Source of the DNA: Muribaculaceae bacterium
GTDB taxonomy: Bacteria; Bacteroidota; Bacteroidia; Bacteroidales; Muribaculaceae
NCBI GenBank assembly: GCA_017940245.1
Contig: JAGAYZ010000067.1
Span: 1-43,854 of the forward strand
Direction: 5' to 3'
DNA: 43,854 bases
Part shown: positions 824 through 7,388 of the stretch, one piece after another
How positions within the stretch are numbered: the stretch's first letter is position 1
How the letters are laid out: every line of letters starts with the position of its first letter
The notes under the pieces: generated by a model
What the model was told of the DNA's origin: nothing
What the model saw: the letters and a program-made list of their open reading frames with translations, nothing else
Databases searched by the model: none
Made by a program: the position numbers and the translations under genes

Positions 824-831
824 TAATTTTG
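824..831 (+). promoter_or_regulatory. -7 box of the HxlR gene, almost touching its ATG
   Basis: TAATTTTG matches TAnnTTTG. A TTTG at 799-802 could be the -33 box, with a spacing of 21. The ATG at 837 begins 5 bases after the box, so the transcript would begin at or next to the start codon. Confidence 0.4.
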
Positions 832-836
832 TGGTC

Positions 837-1199
837 ATGAATAAAGAATTACACGTGGAATATCTGTCGTGCCCCATCAGGCATGTGATAGGCCGTTTTG
901 GCGACAAGTGGTCGTTGCTGGTGCTGTATGCCTTGTGGCGCAGCGAGGGAGGAGTGATGCGATTTGGCGAGTTGCATCGGTTTATGGACGATTGCTCGCA
1001 GAAAATGCTTTCGCAGACGCTCAAAGCACTGGTCAAGAATCATTTGGTGAGCCGCAAGCAGTATGCCGAGATTCCACCCAGAGTGGAGTATTCGCTCACT
1101 GCACTGGGCCAGTCGCTCATGCCCCACGTCGAGGGACTCGTGGGCTGGAGCCTGGAGCATTTCCACGATGTGACCGAGGGAAAAGTCATCGTTAAATAG
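837..1199 (+). CDS. HxlR-family winged-helix transcriptional regulator
   Basis: Single-domain MarR/HxlR-type regulator of 120 residues from the ATG at 837; an in-frame GTG at 831 is possible. The family pattern is complete: the N-terminal Cys-Pro (SCPIRHVIGRFGDKW, C12), the recognition-helix region MRFGELHRFMDDCSQKMLSQTL, and the wing with PPRVEYSLTALG followed by a final helix. In well-studied relatives (YodB, HypR, CatR) the conserved N-terminal cysteine senses quinones, diamide or hypochlorite and controls a divergent detoxification gene. Here C12 and a second Cys in the DDCSQ segment are candidates for the switch. The divergent gene is a cupin, and an inverted repeat of the YodB type lies between them. 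Regulation of the cupin gene is therefore likely, though direct proof is absent. Confidence 0.9.
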   Translation: MNKELHVEYLSCPIRHVIGRFGDKWSLLVLYALWRSEGGVMRFGELHRFMDDCSQKMLSQTLKALVKNHLVSRKQYAEIPPRVEYSLTALGQSLMPHVEGLVGWSLEHFHDVTEGKVIVK

Positions 1200-1227
1200 A
1201 GGGATTACACTATCCCCCAAAAGCATC

Positions 1228-1274
1228 AAAATCTATGCAAATCTGCAATCCGATTGCAGATTTGCATAGATTTT
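1228..1274. repeat. 22-bp perfect palindrome, copy 1 of 2
   Basis: Two perfect 22-base arms (1228-1249 and 1253-1274) around the three-base loop CCG; the arms end in runs of A and T, so the RNA would be a bidirectional terminator. It follows the HxlR gene. The 56-base stretch 1224-1279 is repeated identically at 4592-4647, where it lies between the dockerin-protein gene and the convergent radical SAM gene. Confidence 0.85.
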
Positions 1275-1317
1275 CTTGTTGAAGAGCAATAATTTGCTCG
1301 GAACAATTTGTGGTAGA

Positions 1318-1391
1318 AATCAGTTGACCTGGATGGGTATGCCGGTGGCTTTGGCGATGCAGTCGCCGATGGCCGAGTCGAGTTTGAGGCT
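1318..1391 (-). pseudogene. Decayed 3' fragment of the radical SAM gene with an internal deletion
   Basis: Read on the minus strand this encodes LKLDSAI joined to GDCIAKATGIPIQVN and a stop. The same two segments in the intact gene at 4687-5466 are residues 143-149 and 245-259. Bases 1318-1370 match 4685-4737 and 1371-1391 match the sequence from 5023 onward, so 285 bases (95 codons) are missing and the frame is kept. The junction falls at a short shared ATGGCC-like sequence. The fragment has no start and is cut off upstream by the MITE-like element at 1392. It is a duplication remnant, not a gene. Confidence 0.85.
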
Positions 1392-1553
1392 GTTGCAAAA
1401 CTCGTTTCAGAGCTGTTTTTGAAAATTCTGTAGGGACGGTGCATGCATCATCAACTGAATTATTTGACTGAATCACAATGCTTTGACTCGACAGACTTGC
1501 ATGCTCCGTCCCTACATTCTGCTGACAATCTCATCATCCTAGAGTTTTGCAAC
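1392..1553. mobile_element. MITE-like element with terminal and internal inverted repeats
   Basis: 162 bases bounded by perfect 12-base inverted ends, GTTGCAAAACTC (1392-1403) and GAGTTTTGCAAC (1542-1553). Inside, a second pair at 1429-1447 and 1498-1516 (core TGTAGGGACGG, continuing into GCATGCA) pairs over 19 bases with one mismatch. There is no open frame of note. It interrupts the radical SAM gene fragment. Size and layout fit a non-autonomous miniature element or a large palindromic repeat; no target-site duplication is obvious. Confidence 0.6.
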
Positions 1554-1665
1554 ACCCCCACTTTGTTTTAAAGACCATGCAAGAACCCCGTTGGGGTTCG
1601 CAGCTTGGTCACCCGCAAAACCCTGTGTTTGGGATAGTCCTTATCCGAAGATGGGCGAGACTCTA
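1554..1665. other. Non-coding stretch with GAACCCC/GGGGTTC hairpin
   Basis: No gene is visible. GAACCCC at 1583-1589 and GGGGTTC at 1593-1599 form a 7-bp hairpin with a 3-base loop. Similar CCCC-GTT-GGGG hairpins are widespread between genes in Bacteroidales, in my experience. It fills the space between the MITE-like element and the first long direct repeat. Confidence 0.4.
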
Positions 1666-1798
1666 TAGAGGAAGAACTTTGTATCAATCACGCCTCTGCA
1701 TTCTCCATATCTTCTGCGTTTTTGATAAGCAAAGGTACATATTTTTGCTCTAATTGAGCCAACACATAAAATTTAACACACAGGATTTTGCAAGTGTC
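1666..1798. repeat. Long direct repeat, left copy, upstream of the dockerin protein
   Basis: 133 bases that match 4433-4547 almost throughout. The left copy carries an 18-base insertion after CTCTGC that ends again in a CTGC, so it may be a small local duplication. The end of the repeat supplies the -33 box of the promoter for the dockerin protein. Together with the right copy it brackets that gene as direct repeats. Confidence 0.85.
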
Positions 1799-1818
1799 CC
1801 AAGAAAATGATATATTTG
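1787..1818 (+). promoter_or_regulatory. Promoter of the dockerin-protein gene
   Basis: TTTG at 1787-1790, 20 bases, then TATATTTG at 1811-1818: a full match to the Bacteroidetes consensus. The leader is about 50 bases. The -33 box lies in the direct repeat and the -7 box just outside it, so the right-hand repeat copy keeps the TTTG but has no -7 box. Confidence 0.75.
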
Positions 1819-1876
1819 CAAATAAAACACCCATCATCGTGAAAACTATAGATAACACATACAAAAACTTAACGAT

Positions 1877-4369
1877 ATGAAAAAAATAACAACACTGCTG
1901 ATGACTTGCCTGGTGGCTATGACTGCGTTCAGCGCGATGGCTATTGAGACCAGCGACTTCGTGATTGACGAAGGCATGCCCATGGGCGACGTGACCGGCG
2001 ACAACAAGGTGGATGTGGAGGATGTGAACCTCGCCATCAACGTCATCCTGGGTCTGGAAACCGACAAGAATGTCAAGGCCAAAGCCGACGTGACCGGCGA
2101 CAACAAGGTGGATGTGGAGGATGTGAACGCTATCATCAACATGATTCTGGGCCTTTCCAGTGGTGGCACGACGGGCGGCTCGGTGATTAAGATGAGCGAT
2201 TTTGTACCTAACTCGGGTAGTACTACGAGCGATATGAATCACCAGTGGGCCGAGGGCGAAGTGATTTTCATTGCCGTGGATCCCGACTACACTAGTGCTT
2301 GCCAGAACGTTTATGCCATGGTGCGTACCGGCGGCAAGTGGGTGTTGAAAGATGTGAAAGGCAGCAACAAGCAGGGATTCAAAACCATTGGTGGCAAACT
2401 GTGTGCAGCCTATGTGCAGCATGCCGATTTGGAGAACTCCTACTATGACTACATTCCGCTCAAAGGCGATGTGGCCTGTGTGAATCGTGCAGCCAATTAC
2501 ACGGTGATTCCGAAGGACGGCAAGTTCTATATTAGAATCAATGACATTCTGCTTTATCACTTTGTGTCGAGAATTGATGTGAATGCGGCCTATGAGGGCG
2601 ACTACTTCTACAGTAGCGTGACACACCTGGATGCACTCACTCAAATCAGGTGGCAGCCGTTCTATTCTTATAGTGATTTTGAGAAGAGCCATCGTGCTCC
2701 GGTGATCGACATCAACAGCAATCACCAGGGATCGGCCTATGGTGTGTGGGAAAAAGGCACACGCGTGGACGACTGGCTCACATTGTACTATAACACCGCA
2801 AACAAAGGGTATTCCTATTTCTGGAACTATACTCAAGACGAACTCAAGCAAGGTTGCTACCTGAGCAGCATTTACTCTCCCTGGCAAAATGCCTGGAACC
2901 GCGACCTGTACATGAATTACTACAACGGCGACGAGCGAAAGAGCTACAGGCTCAATGCCGGCAGCGTCAGCGCTCAGAGTGTGAACATCAATGTGGGCAC
3001 CAACATCATCTTCCGACCCTGGGATGGTGTTACCAGCGACACCCGAGGCACCATGACGAGCGTCACCTCGTCGACCAACGGCATCCTCGACATCAACTAC
3101 GACAATACACAGGTGAGCGTCATAGCACACAAGGTGGGCACCACCACACTCACCATCAAGTTCAAGACCAAAGACGGCCTCAATACGGTCTATACTTATA
3201 ACGTGAAAGTCGACCCCACCGTGTGGGCAGCAGGAAAAACCAGTGACAACAAGCCCATGCTATGGCGCAACTGGGAGAGCAAGGGCATGTACCTGAGTGG
3301 TAGGGACAATTATACCAGTGCTAACGAGGTGATTGTGCGTGGCAGCACAGCCTATGTGATGATGCGCAAAGACGTTTCAAATACTAATACTGACTATTAC
3401 TCAGGTACAGCTGCGATTCTGAAGGCCACAGGGGCTCATGGTGGTGGTTATTTCAATGTGTATAAAGACGGGCTCACCGGTGCCTCAAAAATTTATTGCA
3501 AATTTCCCAAAGCAAATTCCACCCGTTACATAGCCGGTATTCCTCACCTATGGGTTACAAAGAATAATGATGTTTACTACACCACAGCCTACAGGGAGAA
3601 TTATTCCGACGAATACAACTGCATCGTCAGCACCGATATCTATAAAAACAGGTCTTTTTTGAGTAAAGCTTCTTCAAAGTTCATCAACGACCTCGTCACC
3701 GACGACAGCGGCAACCTGTATTATGCGGGTATTAATTCCAACATTGGATCCTACGACGAACTTCTTGCAATCCCATATATTTATCTTGGCGATGCCACCG
3801 GTTATCTTGCCAAACTTACAACCAGCAACAGTCTATCGGTTTACCCATGGATCCACTATTTGTTTAACCGATTGTTTGTCAAGGACGGCACAGTCTATGT
3901 TGATGCCTATGGATTCTATGAAAAAGGCAGTTATGAGACTTATTACTGGTCGTTTGGAAAGAATGTATTCCTGCGGTACACCTCATCGACAGGATTGCAA
4001 CTCTACACAGGCCAAGTGAGTGAGAACGGCTTGTCAATGCTGGGTTCCAACTATAATTCATACGGAACGCTGATAAATCCCGGTACATTCTTGCTTGAAG
4101 GAAACAAGTTCTACTATAGTGGCGGCATACGCACTTACCAGTTAGGTGCCAGCGAATCGACATCCTACACAGCCTATCCAAGCGGTGTCTCACCCTTAGG
4201 GTTCGACGTGAAAAACGGCTATATAGGCATGGTGCTCAAAACTGGCAATAACTCGGCCCACAAGGTGATGACAAGCACGCTTAACAGCTACAATGACGGC
4301 AAAGTTATGGAGAACTCGGCGGGGACAACTATCTATGACGTGTGGTTGCAGACCAGCCTCGACGACTGA
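1877..4369 (+). CDS. Large secreted protein with N-terminal dockerin-type repeats and Ig-like domain
   Basis: 830 residues. A signal peptide (MKKITTLLMTCLVAMTAFSAMA) is followed directly by two EF-hand-like dockerin repeats at about 37-93, each with the core GDVTGDNKVDVEDVN or its close copy and a trailing INVILG/INMILG helix. A BIG2-like bacterial Ig domain follows at about 365-450 (SVNINVGTNI through TTTLTIKFKT). The last 380 residues repeat a pattern of short beta strands (WESKGMYLSG, GSTAYVMMRKD, GNLYYAGIN) that suggests a beta-propeller, by feel only. Exported and probably calcium-binding; the ligand or substrate is unknown. Dockerins usually sit at the C-terminus, so an N-terminal pair is uncommon. 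The gene has its own promoter and lies between two direct repeats, next to a scar of the neighbouring gene, which suggests it arrived as a cassette (inference). Confidence 0.85.
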   Translation: MKKITTLLMTCLVAMTAFSAMAIETSDFVIDEGMPMGDVTGDNKVDVEDVNLAINVILGLETDKNVKAKADVTGDNKVDVEDVNAIINMILGLSSGGTTGGSVIKMSDFVPNSGSTTSDMNHQWAEGEVIFIAVDPDYTSACQNVYAMVRTGGKWVLKDVKGSNKQGFKTIGGKLCAAYVQHADLENSYYDYIPLKGDVACVNRAANYTVIPKDGKFYIRINDILLYHFVSRIDVNAAYEGDYFYSSVTHLDALTQIRWQPFYSYSDFEKSHRAPVIDINSNHQGSAYGVWEKGTRVDDWLTLYYNTANKGYSYFWNYTQDELKQGCYLSSIYSPWQNAWNRDLYMNYYNGDERKSYRLNAGSVSAQSVNINVGTNIIFRPWDGVTSDTRGTMTSVTSSTNGILDINYDNTQVSVIAHKVGTTTLTIKFKTKDGLNTVYTYNVKVDPTVWAAGKTSDNKPMLWRNWESKGMYLSGRDNYTSANEVIVRGSTAYVMMRKDVSNTNTDYYSGTAAILKATGAHGGGYFNVYKDGLTGASKIYCKFPKANSTRYIAGIPHLWVTKNNDVYYTTAYRENYSDEYNCIVSTDIYKNRSFLSKASSKFINDLVTDDSGNLYYAGINSNIGSYDELLAIPYIYLGDATGYLAKLTTSNSLSVYPWIHYLFNRLFVKDGTVYVDAYGFYEKGSYETYYWSFGKNVFLRYTSSTGLQLYTGQVSENGLSMLGSNYNSYGTLINPGTFLLEGNKFYYSGGIRTYQLGASESTSYTAYPSGVSPLGFDVKNGYIGMVLKTGNNSAHKVMTSTLNSYNDGKVMENSAGTTIYDVWLQTSLDD

Positions 4370-4432
4370 TAGCCCGCGAAAGGAACTTCTCGCATTACTA
4401 TTCTGTTTGCGTAGGGAGTGTTTTACAATATG

Positions 4433-4547
4433 TAGAGGAAGAACTTTGTATCAATCACGCCTCTGCGTTTTTGATAAAGCAAAGGTACATATTTTTGCTC
4501 TAATTGAGCCAATATACAAAATTTAACACACAGGTTTTGCAAGTGTC
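4433..4547. repeat. Long direct repeat, right copy, downstream of the dockerin protein
   Basis: 115 bases matching 1666-1798 except for the 18-base insertion of the left copy and a few substitutions. Bases 4370-4432 just before it carry no gene; GTAGGGAGTGTTTTACAA there vaguely recalls the ends of the MITE-like element. Confidence 0.85.
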
Positions 4548-4595
4548 TTGAAAAGTCCTTGTGAAATAACGGAATTCAATCGCTCCATGAACATC

Positions 4596-4642
4596 AAAAT
4601 CTATGCAAATCTGCAATCCGATTGCAGATTTGCATAGATTTT
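4596..4642. terminator. 22-bp palindrome, copy 2: bidirectional terminator
   Basis: Identical to 1228-1274: two 22-base arms (4596-4617, 4621-4642) with a CCG loop and A/T-rich ends. It lies between the convergent dockerin-protein and radical SAM genes and can end transcription from both sides. Bases 4643-4686 between it and the radical SAM stop codon hold nothing else. Confidence 0.8.
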
Positions 4643-4686
4643 CTTGTGGCGTGCACAAAGATTAGGGCCGCAAATCGTGTTCCGAA

Positions 4687-5466
4687 TCAGTTGACCTGGA
4701 TGGGTATGCCGGTGGCTTTGGCGATGCGGTCGCCGATAGCCTGCAGCTCGTCATGCTCAATTTTCACCAGATTCTCGGCGGGTGTTTTGCGGTCGATGGA
4801 GTAGAGCATCACTTCGCGCGGAGCAATCTCGCGATAGGCTTGAATGAGTGCCTCCACTTCGGCATCGGTGGTGTTGTCGATGTGGTGACCGTCGTAGTCG
4901 CCGCGCAGCATCATGGTCTGCACGATGCACTGCCCGGTGAACTGCTTCAGATCGGCAATGATGCCCTGCGGAATCACGTTGGGTGAGGTGGGGCGGTTCA
5001 GGGCTGTGAGGGTGGTGGCAATGGCCGAGTCCAGTTTAAGGATATTGTTATCCACCAGTTTGAGCGCGTCGGCCACGCTCTTCTTTCCTGCCATGGTGGA
5101 GTTGCTCAGCACGCTCACTTTGGCCTCGGGGTAGTAGCGGTCGCGCAGCATGATCACGTCGTGCACCACCTCGGCAAAATGAGGGTGCAGCGTGGGCTCG
5201 CCATTACCCGAAAATGTGATTACGTCAAGCCCGTCGCCGGCGGCCTTCATGGTCTCGAGTTTCTTTTTGAGTTGACGTTTCACGCTCTCGCGGCTGGGAA
5301 TTCCGTCTTTGCCGTGTCCTTGCGCGTTGAATCCGGCCTCGCAATAAAGGCAGTCGAACGAGCACACCTTGCCGTCGTTGGGCATGAGGTTAACGCCCAG
5401 TGAGATGCCTAGGCGGCGGCTGTGGATGGGACCAAAAATGGTGTTGTGAAAAAGAACAGTTTGCAT
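4687..5466 (-). CDS. Radical SAM protein (COG0731-type Fe-S oxidoreductase)
   Basis: 259 residues. The cluster motif is CSFDCLYC (C35, C39, C42), which is CX3CX2C, the usual radical SAM spacing. It is preceded by FGPIHSRRLGISLGVNLMP, the characteristic start of the COG0731 group (related to TYW1-like wybutosine proteins), and followed by the SAM-binding FSGNGEPTLHP at about 85-95. It binds a 4Fe-4S cluster and SAM and should make a 5'-deoxyadenosyl radical; the substrate is unknown. It is last in a tight minus-strand run: its ATG is 5 bases after the stop of the GT4 gene. A partial, internally deleted copy of its 3' end lies 3.3 kb away at 1318-1391. Confidence 0.88.
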   Translation of the reverse strand: MQTVLFHNTIFGPIHSRRLGISLGVNLMPNDGKVCSFDCLYCEAGFNAQGHGKDGIPSRESVKRQLKKKLETMKAAGDGLDVITFSGNGEPTLHPHFAEVVHDVIMLRDRYYPEAKVSVLSNSTMAGKKSVADALKLVDNNILKLDSAIATTLTALNRPTSPNVIPQGIIADLKQFTGQCIVQTMMLRGDYDGHHIDNTTDAEVEALIQAYREIAPREVMLYSIDRKTPAENLVKIEHDELQAIGDRIAKATGIPIQVN

Positions 5467-5471
5467 AGTGT

Positions 5472-6725
5472 CTATATTGATTGTTTGAAGTTGTTGTCGT
5501 TCAGGAGTGATTGATATAGCGTGAGATGCTGGCGGGCAATGACACTGGCATCGAAGTGGTCACGCACCCACTGGTGCTGGCTCTGGCGTGTGATGCCGGC
5601 ATCCAGCGCCCATTCTATGCCTTGAGCGATGTGTGCGGGATCGTGGCTGCCGGTGACAAAACCATTGTGCCGGTGCTTGACAATGTCTACTTGACCACCA
5701 TCGCCGGTGGTGACAGGAATGCAACCGCAAGCCATGCCCTCGACCAGTGTGTAGCCAAACGACTCGTAGCGCGAGGTGGAAAGTACCAGCCGTGCGTGTG
5801 AGTAGATGTTTTGCAGGTCGTGAACATATCCCAGATAGGTGTAGGGAAGTGCCAGTTGTTCCAGTAACGAAGAGTCGTGGATGCCCCCGTAAAGCACCAG
5901 ATGCAGTCGCCGTGCCAGCTCGGGTCGCTTGGTGGCGATGTGCTGCGTGGTGGCGATGAGCGTGTCCAGTCCCTTGACCGGGTCGTCGAGTCTCGCGGCT
6001 CCCATCACCATCACGCTGCGCCCTGATTCCACATTCCAGACGTTAGGAGCACTGGTGACGGGACTGAAGGATGTTGTGGGGAACGGGTTGGCAATGACGC
6101 TGATGTCGCAGTCGTGCATCACACTGCTGCGCCGGCAGCATTGCTCAAGCCAGTGGCTCACGGCTACAAAGTGAATGTGCGCGTCTTTATAGAGCATGCG
6201 CTTGCGGCGCTGGGTGCTGGACGATAAATCCTCGCCCTGCTTGCCCGTGAGCGGGCAACTGTGGCAAGTGCCTTCGTAGGCACGACATTGGGCGGCATGG
6301 TGACACACCCCGGTGCAGTTCCACATGTCGTGCATCACCCACACGACGGGTTTGCCCAGTGTGGTCAGACGCTTCACATCGTCGAGTGAAAGCATCGCCT
6401 GGTTCACCCATCCCAGCACCACCACGTCGGCCCAGTCGACCCAGGGGTGACCAATGATGTTCACGCCGTGTGTGGCGGTATCGATCTGGAACAGTGTGTC
6501 GCGATTCATCCCGTTGTGCAGGTAAATGCCCAGTCGCTCGGCCAGGAAACGGTAACGATTGCCCACCTTGCTGCCCACTGTCGCCACTTGCTGGTGCTCA
6601 CCACGCCGGTCAATGACCAGCATGCGCGCCTGGGCGCCTTGAGCGTTCAAGCCGTCCATGAGCCGTGTGGTGGCGATGGCCGCTCCACCCAGCAAATCGC
6701 TTCGGTTAATGAGCAGGATGTTCAT
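5472..6725 (-). CDS. Glycosyltransferase family 4 protein
   Basis: 417 residues with the GT-B layout. The N-terminal domain begins MNILLINRSDLLGGAAIATT, the GG-rich acceptor-side loop of GT4 enzymes. A Cys-rich insert at about 115-145 (WNCTGVCHHAAQCRAYEGTCHSCP) is typical of one Bacteroidetes GT4 subgroup and could bind a metal. The C-terminal half carries GAARLDDPVKGLD, YLGYVHD and the EX7E-like SRYESFGYTLVEGMACG sugar-nucleotide motif with its conserved glutamates. It transfers a sugar to a glycan or lipid acceptor in the cytoplasm. It follows rnhA by 24 bases and precedes the radical SAM gene by 5, so it is co-transcribed with both. Donor and acceptor cannot be told. Confidence 0.9.
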   Translation of the reverse strand: MNILLINRSDLLGGAAIATTRLMDGLNAQGAQARMLVIDRRGEHQQVATVGSKVGNRYRFLAERLGIYLHNGMNRDTLFQIDTATHGVNIIGHPWVDWADVVVLGWVNQAMLSLDDVKRLTTLGKPVVWVMHDMWNCTGVCHHAAQCRAYEGTCHSCPLTGKQGEDLSSSTQRRKRMLYKDAHIHFVAVSHWLEQCCRRSSVMHDCDISVIANPFPTTSFSPVTSAPNVWNVESGRSVMVMGAARLDDPVKGLDTLIATTQHIATKRPELARRLHLVLYGGIHDSSLLEQLALPYTYLGYVHDLQNIYSHARLVLSTSRYESFGYTLVEGMACGCIPVTTGDGGQVDIVKHRHNGFVTGSHDPAHIAQGIEWALDAGITRQSQHQWVRDHFDASVIARQHLTLYQSLLNDNNFKQSI

Positions 6726-6749
6726 GTGTGGCAGGTGATGATAGTCGGG

Positions 6750-7388
6750 TTATTTTCGTCCAAAATCGGCAGGGATTTCGCCCCACTTGTCGGTTTCCCA
6801 CTTGATGATGCGGTTTCGCCACGAGTGTGTGGCCAGCCATTGCTCGGCGCGGCCTATGAGTTCAAACACGCGCTCGTTATGGTCGGTGCGCTCCAACTTG
6901 GACTTGCACTTGCGGTCGCGCACCCATGCCATGGCCGTGCGGCTGTCGCTATAGATGGCGGTATGGTCGTTGGCCGTGTTGTAAAAGAAAGCCAGCGCGT
7001 GCACCAGTGCCAGAAATTCGCCCACGTTGTTGGTCGCGTCTTTGAAGGGTCCCTGGTGGAACAGTTCAGCTCCGGTCATGACGTCGACTCCGCGGTATTC
7101 CATGATGCCGGGATTGCCACTGCAAGCACCATCGACGGCGATGCTGTCGCGCACGATTTCGGGGATGGCTTCATAGTTGACCTGCAATTTAGGGGCTCGC
7201 GCGATGGCACGTATCAGGTCGCGGTCGGCAAAGCCTTCGCGAAAGGCGCGTATGGCGTCTTGCTGTGTGTTGAACGACTTGTACTGGGCATCGGGATAAC
7301 CCTTGACGCGGGCTTCACACTCGGCCCACGAGTCGCACACACCGGTTTCTGTGCCGCGCCACACGACATACCACTTCTTTCTAGCCAT
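6750..7388 (-). CDS. rnhA: Ribonuclease H with N-terminal viroplasmin-like domain
   Basis: 212 residues from the ATG at 7388; a longer open frame upstream has no homology-like content, and MARKKWYVVWRG is the natural start. Residues 4-50 form the small RNA:DNA-hybrid-binding domain seen in eukaryotic RNase H1 and many Bacteroidetes RNases H. The RNase HI domain covers about 82-212: D86 in AVDGACSGNPG, E124 in NNVGEFLALVHAL, D148 in IYSDSRTA, and a C-terminal Asp in the WGEIPADFGRK tail (D208, or D200 before it). It cuts the RNA strand of RNA-DNA hybrids. It lies between the coiled-coil protein and the GT4 gene in one run. Confidence 0.93.
   Translation of the reverse strand: MARKKWYVVWRGTETGVCDSWAECEARVKGYPDAQYKSFNTQQDAIRAFREGFADRDLIRAIARAPKLQVNYEAIPEIVRDSIAVDGACSGNPGIMEYRGVDVMTGAELFHQGPFKDATNNVGEFLALVHALAFFYNTANDHTAIYSDSRTAMAWVRDRKCKSKLERTDHNERVFELIGRAEQWLATHSWRNRIIKWETDKWGEIPADFGRK

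Follow-up and report, generated by a model that had tools for sequence, protein, structure and literature searches.

We analysed a locus within a 43,854-nt stretch of DNA from a Muribaculaceae bacterium (GenBank assembly GCA_017940245.1, contig JAGAYZ010000067.1, positions 1 to 43,854, forward strand; hereafter the window), in which a gene for a dockerin-domain protein stands between an HxlR-type regulator gene and a radical SAM gene, inside two nested pairs of direct repeats. On balance we lean towards reading this locus as a layered insertion site, composed of insertion sequence (IS) relics, a candidate hybrid promoter, an incoming dockerin gene and a palindrome that would have served as the entry point. 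Both inner repeats arose by internal deletion from an ISAon1-family IS whose ends are multicopy in the same genome, and neither is autonomous; the left relic sets a TTTG box at promoter spacing before the TATATTTG box of the dockerin gene. The occurrence and identities of dockerin genes among relatives give good support to the inference that this gene was acquired or relocated here. The outer repeats carry the palindrome, which in a related species is doubled around an ATPase gene, and the locus is probably an entry site for genes at which the palindrome doubles.

Comparisons within the genus used 101 genomes including that of the window (G000); the others belong to other species. The locus comprises the following features.

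831 to 1199, plus strand: HxlR-type regulator gene, the left anchor (PF01638, E 1.5e-25; closest relatives in G014 and G009, 89–90%)
1224 to 1279, no strand: palindrome A, left copy, matching the right one at all 56 nt
1280 to 1317, no strand: left spacer, unalignable with the right spacer at 4648–4684
1318 to 1395, minus strand: remnant of the radical SAM 3′ end (1318–1374, plus ~20 nt from deeper in the gene)
1386 to 1555, no strand: small repeat element with inverted ends GTTGCAAAACTC / GAGTTTTGCAAC (boundaries by eye; kin in C78, C77 and C32)
1556 to 1612, no strand: piece of a ~130-nt repeat family with five further loci in the genome; its GGTCAC merges into the IS terminal repeat
1606 to 1800, minus strand: internally deleted ISAon1-family copy with both terminal inverted repeats, the transposase start (MENA) fused to its end (GVIDTKFFLYRVSPIFG)
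1787 to 1818, plus strand: candidate hybrid promoter, with TTTG at 1787–1790 (IS end), 20 nt, and TATATTTG at 1811–1818
1877 to 4369, plus strand: gene for a dockerin type I protein of 830 aa, predicted to be secreted (PF00404, residues 37–91, 28.4 bits)
4433 to 4547, minus strand: second internally deleted IS copy, with the same junction, lacking the left end and with a changed right-end tip
4592 to 4647, no strand: palindrome A, right copy, ~37 nt past the radical SAM stop
4687 to 5466, minus strand: radical SAM gene, the right anchor (PF04055; supported by gene order in relatives)

The original prediction described the outer pair as a 56-base palindrome at 1224–1279 and 4592–4647, followed both times by the 3′ end of the radical SAM gene, and both observations hold. 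The palindrome copies agree at 56/56 nt, with the next base differing on both sides, and the adjoining radical SAM ends (1318–1374 and 4685–4741) agree at 55/57. Each palindrome has 23-bp perfect arms around a 1-nt centre, and the right copy has 28-bp arms at 93%. Between palindrome and radical SAM end lie spacers of 38 nt (left) and 37 nt (right), whose alignment is no better than chance (15% of 2,000 shuffles score equally). The 27 nt at 1369–1395 are 85% identical to radical SAM positions 5021–5047, deeper in the gene, indicating that the left radical SAM end is internally deleted. In its own genome the palindrome occurs in only two places, both in the window, which rules out a genome-wide repetitive extragenic palindromic (REP)-type repeat. 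The right anchor keeps its neighbourhood across species: the order glycosyltransferase–radical SAM recurs in 17 of the 20 relatives from which stretches were fetched, and one of the other three is a contig that starts at the radical SAM gene.

The inner repeats are deletion derivatives of an ISAon1-family insertion sequence

The inner repeats, at 1666–1798 and 4433–4547, are 83% identical overall, with a best block of 62 nt at 94%. They bracket the gene at 1877–4369, a single open frame of 830 aa, as originally predicted; what had been overlooked is that the left repeat belongs to a two-ended element extending further left, as far as 1606. When window positions 1600–1860 were searched against the own genome, 18 matches were returned, 2 in the window and 16 elsewhere, all 16 within ~150 nt of a contig end. 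Eight of these share GGGTCACCTGCAAAAACC... reading into the contig end, and the other eight share ...GTTTTTGCGGGTGTCCC; the two sets represent opposite ends of a multicopy element at which the assembly breaks. For five of the eight left flanks there is a right-flank partner with an identical 8 bp adjoining the element. Minus-strand translation of the left end gives AESLNAKIKNFRAQVRGVVDTKFFLYRVSLIFG-stop, a 33-aa transposase C terminus that matches NCBIfam NF049917 (ISAon1 family transposase) at positions 295–326 of 327 (E 2.6e-12; 46.5 bits from the readable fragment only, the whole-protein cut-off being 250 bits), and the right end encodes the start, MENAYKKLLGYILP. The interior of the IS was not recovered: used as a query, the inner portion of one end matched only contig ends and the window.

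At 1606–1800 of the window, the sequence coding for KNAEDMENA runs straight into the GVIDTKFFLYRVSPIFG-stop sequence in another frame, so that only the first and last transposase codons remain. The left copy is thus a 195-nt internally deleted IS that retains both terminal inverted repeats, GGTCACCCGCAAAACCCTGTG / GGGACACTTGCAAAATCCTGTG, which resemble those of the intact genome copies, GGGTCACCTGCAAAAACCTGTG / GGGACACCCGCAAAAACCTGTG. The right copy, in the same orientation, has the same junction and a further small deletion, lacks the left end and has an altered right tip. Contigs of this assembly reach 136–140 nt into the IS before breaking; the window repeats are shorter than this, making an assembly artefact unlikely. 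The two relics recall miniature inverted-repeat transposable element (MITE)-like IS derivatives in that both terminal inverted repeats are kept (in the left copy), the transposase is lost and one deletion is shared; they differ in that only two copies were seen in the genome, no target duplication is left and the right copy is missing one end.

These findings bear on the original proposal that the gene is cargo of a cassette moving by recombination between the inner repeats. A whole-genome search for the inner repeat did find it elsewhere, in 16 places, but those copies bracket no dockerin genes: all are IS ends, and none lies within 3 kb of a dockerin match (150 of 164 candidates in the own genome scored). 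We therefore reject the inner repeat as a cassette boundary. The corresponding search of the genus scored at most eight candidates per genome and gives a partial count.

The left IS relic contributes the upstream half of the candidate promoter, as its TTTG lies in the IS end and TATATTTG in flanking DNA; the original prediction had already placed the −33 box of the gene at the end of the inner repeat, and that box is indeed there. The Bacteroides promoter consensus is given in a review as −33 TTTG and −7 TAnnTTTG (PMC9330008). From the sequence we infer that the hybrid promoter may be in use at the dockerin gene. At one of the eight intact IS right ends (start of contig C3, L009), the TTTG is followed after 20 nt by TACTTTTG in the flanking DNA, making this another candidate hybrid promoter. 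The chance expectation, from measured density, is ~0.003 among 8–9 sites at one fixed offset, a value that AT-rich insertion targets raise. Of 13 orthologue copies in relatives, 9 have a TAnnTTTG 36–54 nt ahead of their start, which suggests that the gene may have possessed its −7 box already and borrowed the −33 box. The arrangement resembles IS-made fusion promoters, where a −33 box in the IS end is joined to a −7 box in target DNA; the references of the same review include the cfiA cases. It differs in involving a 195-nt internally deleted IS of another family and a dockerin gene, and in being predicted from sequence.

Two other repeats adjoin the left relic. The left element merges with the neighbouring repeat at the common word GGTCAC. 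This ~130-nt repeat family (window 1556–1612; L030–L034) has short CGAAGA hairpins and a GACCATGCAAGAACCCC..GGGGTTCGCAGCTTGGTC core and sometimes forms inverted pairs; it matched no Rfam family at threshold, and a search of the window and five loci with Rfam gave only three tRNAs. The small element at 1386–1555, with inverted GTTGCAAAACTC at its ends, contains a further inverted repeat, GTAGGGACGG..CCGTCCCTAC, and related stretches occur in C78, C77 and C32.

Distribution and exchange of the dockerin gene

Type I dockerin, at the N terminus, is the sole Pfam domain of the 830-aa protein (28.4 bits, gathering threshold 22.9), which is predicted from its N terminus to be secreted. The own genome (80% complete) has 142 dockerin-type matches to the window protein among the 150 of 164 candidates scored, almost all confined to the dockerin residues. 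The 729-aa part past the dockerin is matched in 25 of the 101 genomes, the own included, and 14 of the other 24 carriers match at ≥50% identity over at least half of it. No match was found in the ten species nearest by radical SAM identity (81–88%): G034, G068, G011, G072, G096, G022, G014, G009, G035 and G008.

Identities among the dockerin proteins do not track those of two other genes, radical SAM and CysS. G083 and G070 are 93% alike in both, yet their dockerin proteins, beside the same neighbour gene, are 55% alike; G000 and G070 are 69% alike in radical SAM and 86% in CysS, yet 77% alike in the dockerin protein. It is this incongruence, together with the lack of a match in close relatives, that points to a gene acquired or relocated at the locus, as the original prediction had it in calling the gene a newcomer. 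Evidently, members of this gene family have been exchanged or replaced between species.

In the carriers compared, the orthologues occupy places other than the present locus. In G076, G079, G070, G083 and G031 they stand beside a MQIIDGKKISAEIKEEI gene, which we take to be FolD-like; in G098 and G037 they lie between two genes, one presumably DprA-like and the other presumably ribonucleotide-reductase-like. Within 19 stretches around orthologues in relatives, six of which overlap others and which thus represent 13 places in 12 genomes, the IS terminal repeat was not found at up to four substitutions. At L207, L209 and L211, dockerin orthologues adjoin a similar gene in G033 and G092, and further copies or pieces lie nearby in G063.

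The palindrome at related loci and at DUF4143 ATPase genes

A search allowing up to three mismatches in one arm found the palindrome in 8 of the 101 genomes and a looser two-arm pattern in 10; both searches together gave 13 genomes (the own included in each count) and about six distinct loci. Near the anchors of our locus, the palindrome follows HxlR in G014 and an LRR (leucine-rich repeat) gene in G009, G007, G022 and G072. It is single in G007, G009 and G014, which have no dockerin gene there. In G009 and G007 the order is radical SAM, HK (histidine kinase), response regulator, LRR gene, then palindrome, and in G009 HxlR and radical SAM stand in facing orientation with 9.2 kb between them. 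The palindrome of G014 is 194 nt past HxlR, and the last bases of the contig read, by eye, as the end of an LRR gene. These three genomes lend indirect support to the ancestral order of the original prediction, HxlR, palindrome and then the radical SAM side. The comparison suggests that, between HxlR and the radical SAM side, the palindrome was probably already in place when the dockerin gene was inserted, and that the window lineage probably lost the HK-to-LRR genes or never had them. A genome with HxlR directly beside radical SAM, which the prediction had named as a check, was not found among the relatives of other species.

HxlR was not found on the 20 fetched radical SAM stretches, several of which end within 400 nt of the gene, and at least 18 genomes with a minus-strand match have a contig end no more than 460 nt downstream of radical SAM. 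What follows this gene differs among most of the 20 relatives, and together with the contig ends this suggests a variable site. An Rfam search of the downstream DNA in ten relatives whose contigs continue gave no family. In G009 (L214, ~6619–6862 and 6997–7282), two stretches past the palindrome match the same part of G022, and a ~240-nt block seems doubled.

At the corresponding genomic site in G072, the palindrome occurs twice, around one AAA_14-DUF4143 gene (L282:3531–4916), and 41 nt of the single G007 palindrome site are present on both sides of it. We take AAA_14-DUF4143 proteins to be ATPases joined to a PD-(D/E)XK-type nuclease domain. G022 carries another such gene (L281:5378–6967) between two copies of a second palindrome (67 nt, 97%), which lies 30–40 nt further on, has a third partial copy before the gene and is single in G072. 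The two ATPase genes lie in the same intergenic region, and each genome holds the other's palindrome as a single copy. In G027 and G042, an AAA_14-DUF4143 gene starts 67–80 nt after the first palindrome; these places were picked through the palindrome, which biases the association there.

Outside the genus, DUF4143 ATPase matches occur in 377 of 72,556 plasmid records and in 8 phage-collection records. From the listed matches we picked 18 genes by hand, not at random (16 plasmid and 2 phage-collection records), with 26 neighbouring genes on 13 of the 18 stretches as controls; G042, G027, G072 and G022, found through the palindrome, were left out. Starts were taken as annotated, save in three unannotated records; for two ‘Bacteriophage sp.’ records the start was 1492, and one of these has an earlier ATG. 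A palindrome scoring ≥9 in the 70 nt before the start was present at 7 of 18 ATPase genes, compared with 0 of 26 controls, leaving 11 ATPase genes without one. At cut-offs of 8, 9 and 10 the counts were 9 versus 3, 7 versus 0 and 6 versus 0 (Fisher P = 0.007, 0.0008 and 0.003; rank test P = 0.018). A null of random windows, which is too lenient because it includes coding DNA, had put 9 of 18 genes at P < 0.05 (combined P = 1e-7). Under a stricter 200-nt definition, palindromes lay upstream in 3 of 18 and downstream in 3 of 18 (G042 also counted), compared with 0.03 per 200 nt elsewhere.

The upstream palindromes of the ATPase genes span ~37–43 nt directly before the start codon (L288–L305), and their sequence varies between phyla. 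In two gut contigs the palindrome runs TTTATGTAATTTTGCAGT...TTGCATAAA, and that of one Runella plasmid is similar, the same theme as in the window palindrome; the gut-contig pair, whose palindromes are almost identical, may not count as two independent cases. A similar palindrome at an Emticicia gene scores under the cut-off, and Treponema, Runella rosea and Sphingobium have upstream palindromes of other sequences. The Treponema ATPase gene has like palindromes on both sides. No direct repeats between upstream and downstream sides were found around the eight plasmid ATPase genes tested for them. Neither an exact match to the palindrome pattern nor a close relative of the G072 ATPase turned up in viral contigs. 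In the literature searched, one paper mentioned DUF4143 and none joined it with a palindrome. Among the palindrome-flanked ATPase genes of G072, G022 and the Treponema plasmid, it is with G072 that the window shares the same palindrome, doubled around one gene; the window differs in having a dockerin gene and no ATPase between the copies; the palindrome alone links the window to this ATPase family.

Possible origins of the locus

In the layered-site reading, the palindrome would be a favoured insertion point, with one copy before a gene enters and two afterwards, as seen with the ATPase gene in G072. The dockerin segment with its IS relics would have entered at the palindrome, a piece of the radical SAM 3′ end being copied along. 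Of the original cassette idea, this retains a boundary, for which the palindrome is a better candidate than the inner repeats. Several observations weigh against this reading. Among the ten nearest species, only G068 and G072 are more than 90% complete (both 97%; G034 66%, G008 82%), so some absences of the dockerin gene may be missing sequence. The best dockerin match, at 82% in G098 (radical SAM 66%), is by itself not above the genome average, because CysS stands at 84% between G000 and the larger of two matched G098 pieces; the argument for a foreign gene draws on the patchiness and the identity matrix, not on this value alone. Neither IS relic in the window has an 8-bp target duplication, and their flanks are rearranged. 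The outer duplication includes an unalignable spacer, unlike the outcome of a single duplication. The junction of HxlR with the LRR cluster in G014 depends solely on how the last contig bases are read. Finally, the window contains no AAA_14-DUF4143 gene (tblastn with three such ATPases, E 1e-8), so the step of insertion at the palindrome is drawn by analogy.

The analogy can be pressed further, to a mobile unit built around AAA_14-DUF4143 proteins for which the palindrome would be the recognition and duplication site. Such a unit would insert at palindromes, leaving a whole 40–56-nt palindrome on both sides, and the dockerin gene would have entered or replaced the ATPase gene; we consider this decidedly unlikely. 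Single-crossover (Campbell-type) integration of DNA carrying the dockerin gene, a foreign palindrome and a radical SAM 3′ end is unlikely too. It would leave direct repeats of that end, with spacers that differ because they come from two strains. The order of repeats fits, with a truncated radical SAM end on the left, the full gene on the right and the insert between; the spacers are alike in length and unlike in sequence; and the radical SAM ends differ at two positions, one of them with the base of G034 in the right copy and that of most other relatives in the left. Unalignable spacers beside a palindrome identical at 56/56 and a radical SAM end at 55/57 are, however, not expected of strain divergence, and no donor was found.

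The same spacers speak against an old tandem duplication of radical SAM and its terminator, whose left copy decayed as repeats and the dockerin gene inserted: such a copy would not keep 55/57 bases beside an unalignable spacer. Its left fragment does hold radical SAM pieces from two parts of the gene, and several different repeat elements lie within the same 400 nt; nevertheless, radical SAM is matched in 96 of the 101 genomes, 92 of which have just one match, and we regard this origin as improbable. We are similarly doubtful of a composite transposon, in which the two IS copies, complete at the time, carried the dockerin gene between them as one mobile unit. Here two same-orientation IS copies do flank one gene, in the general manner of composite transposons, and the family is multicopy with target duplications. 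Against this, one internal deletion is common to both copies, so that today neither codes for a transposase; the right copy has an altered outer end, and the pair lacks a framing 8-bp duplication. The gene appears with IS ends in none of the 19 orthologue stretches (13 distinct places).

The locus itself is mostly ordinary: IS debris next to a surface-protein gene that is exchanged among species and probably has an IS-made promoter. The association between palindrome and ATPase matters more. A palindrome that stands before the start of many DUF4143 ATPase genes, doubled in one species and single in a relative, would, if the association is true, give this family a testable role, and its members would be candidate site-specific binders or movers of genes.

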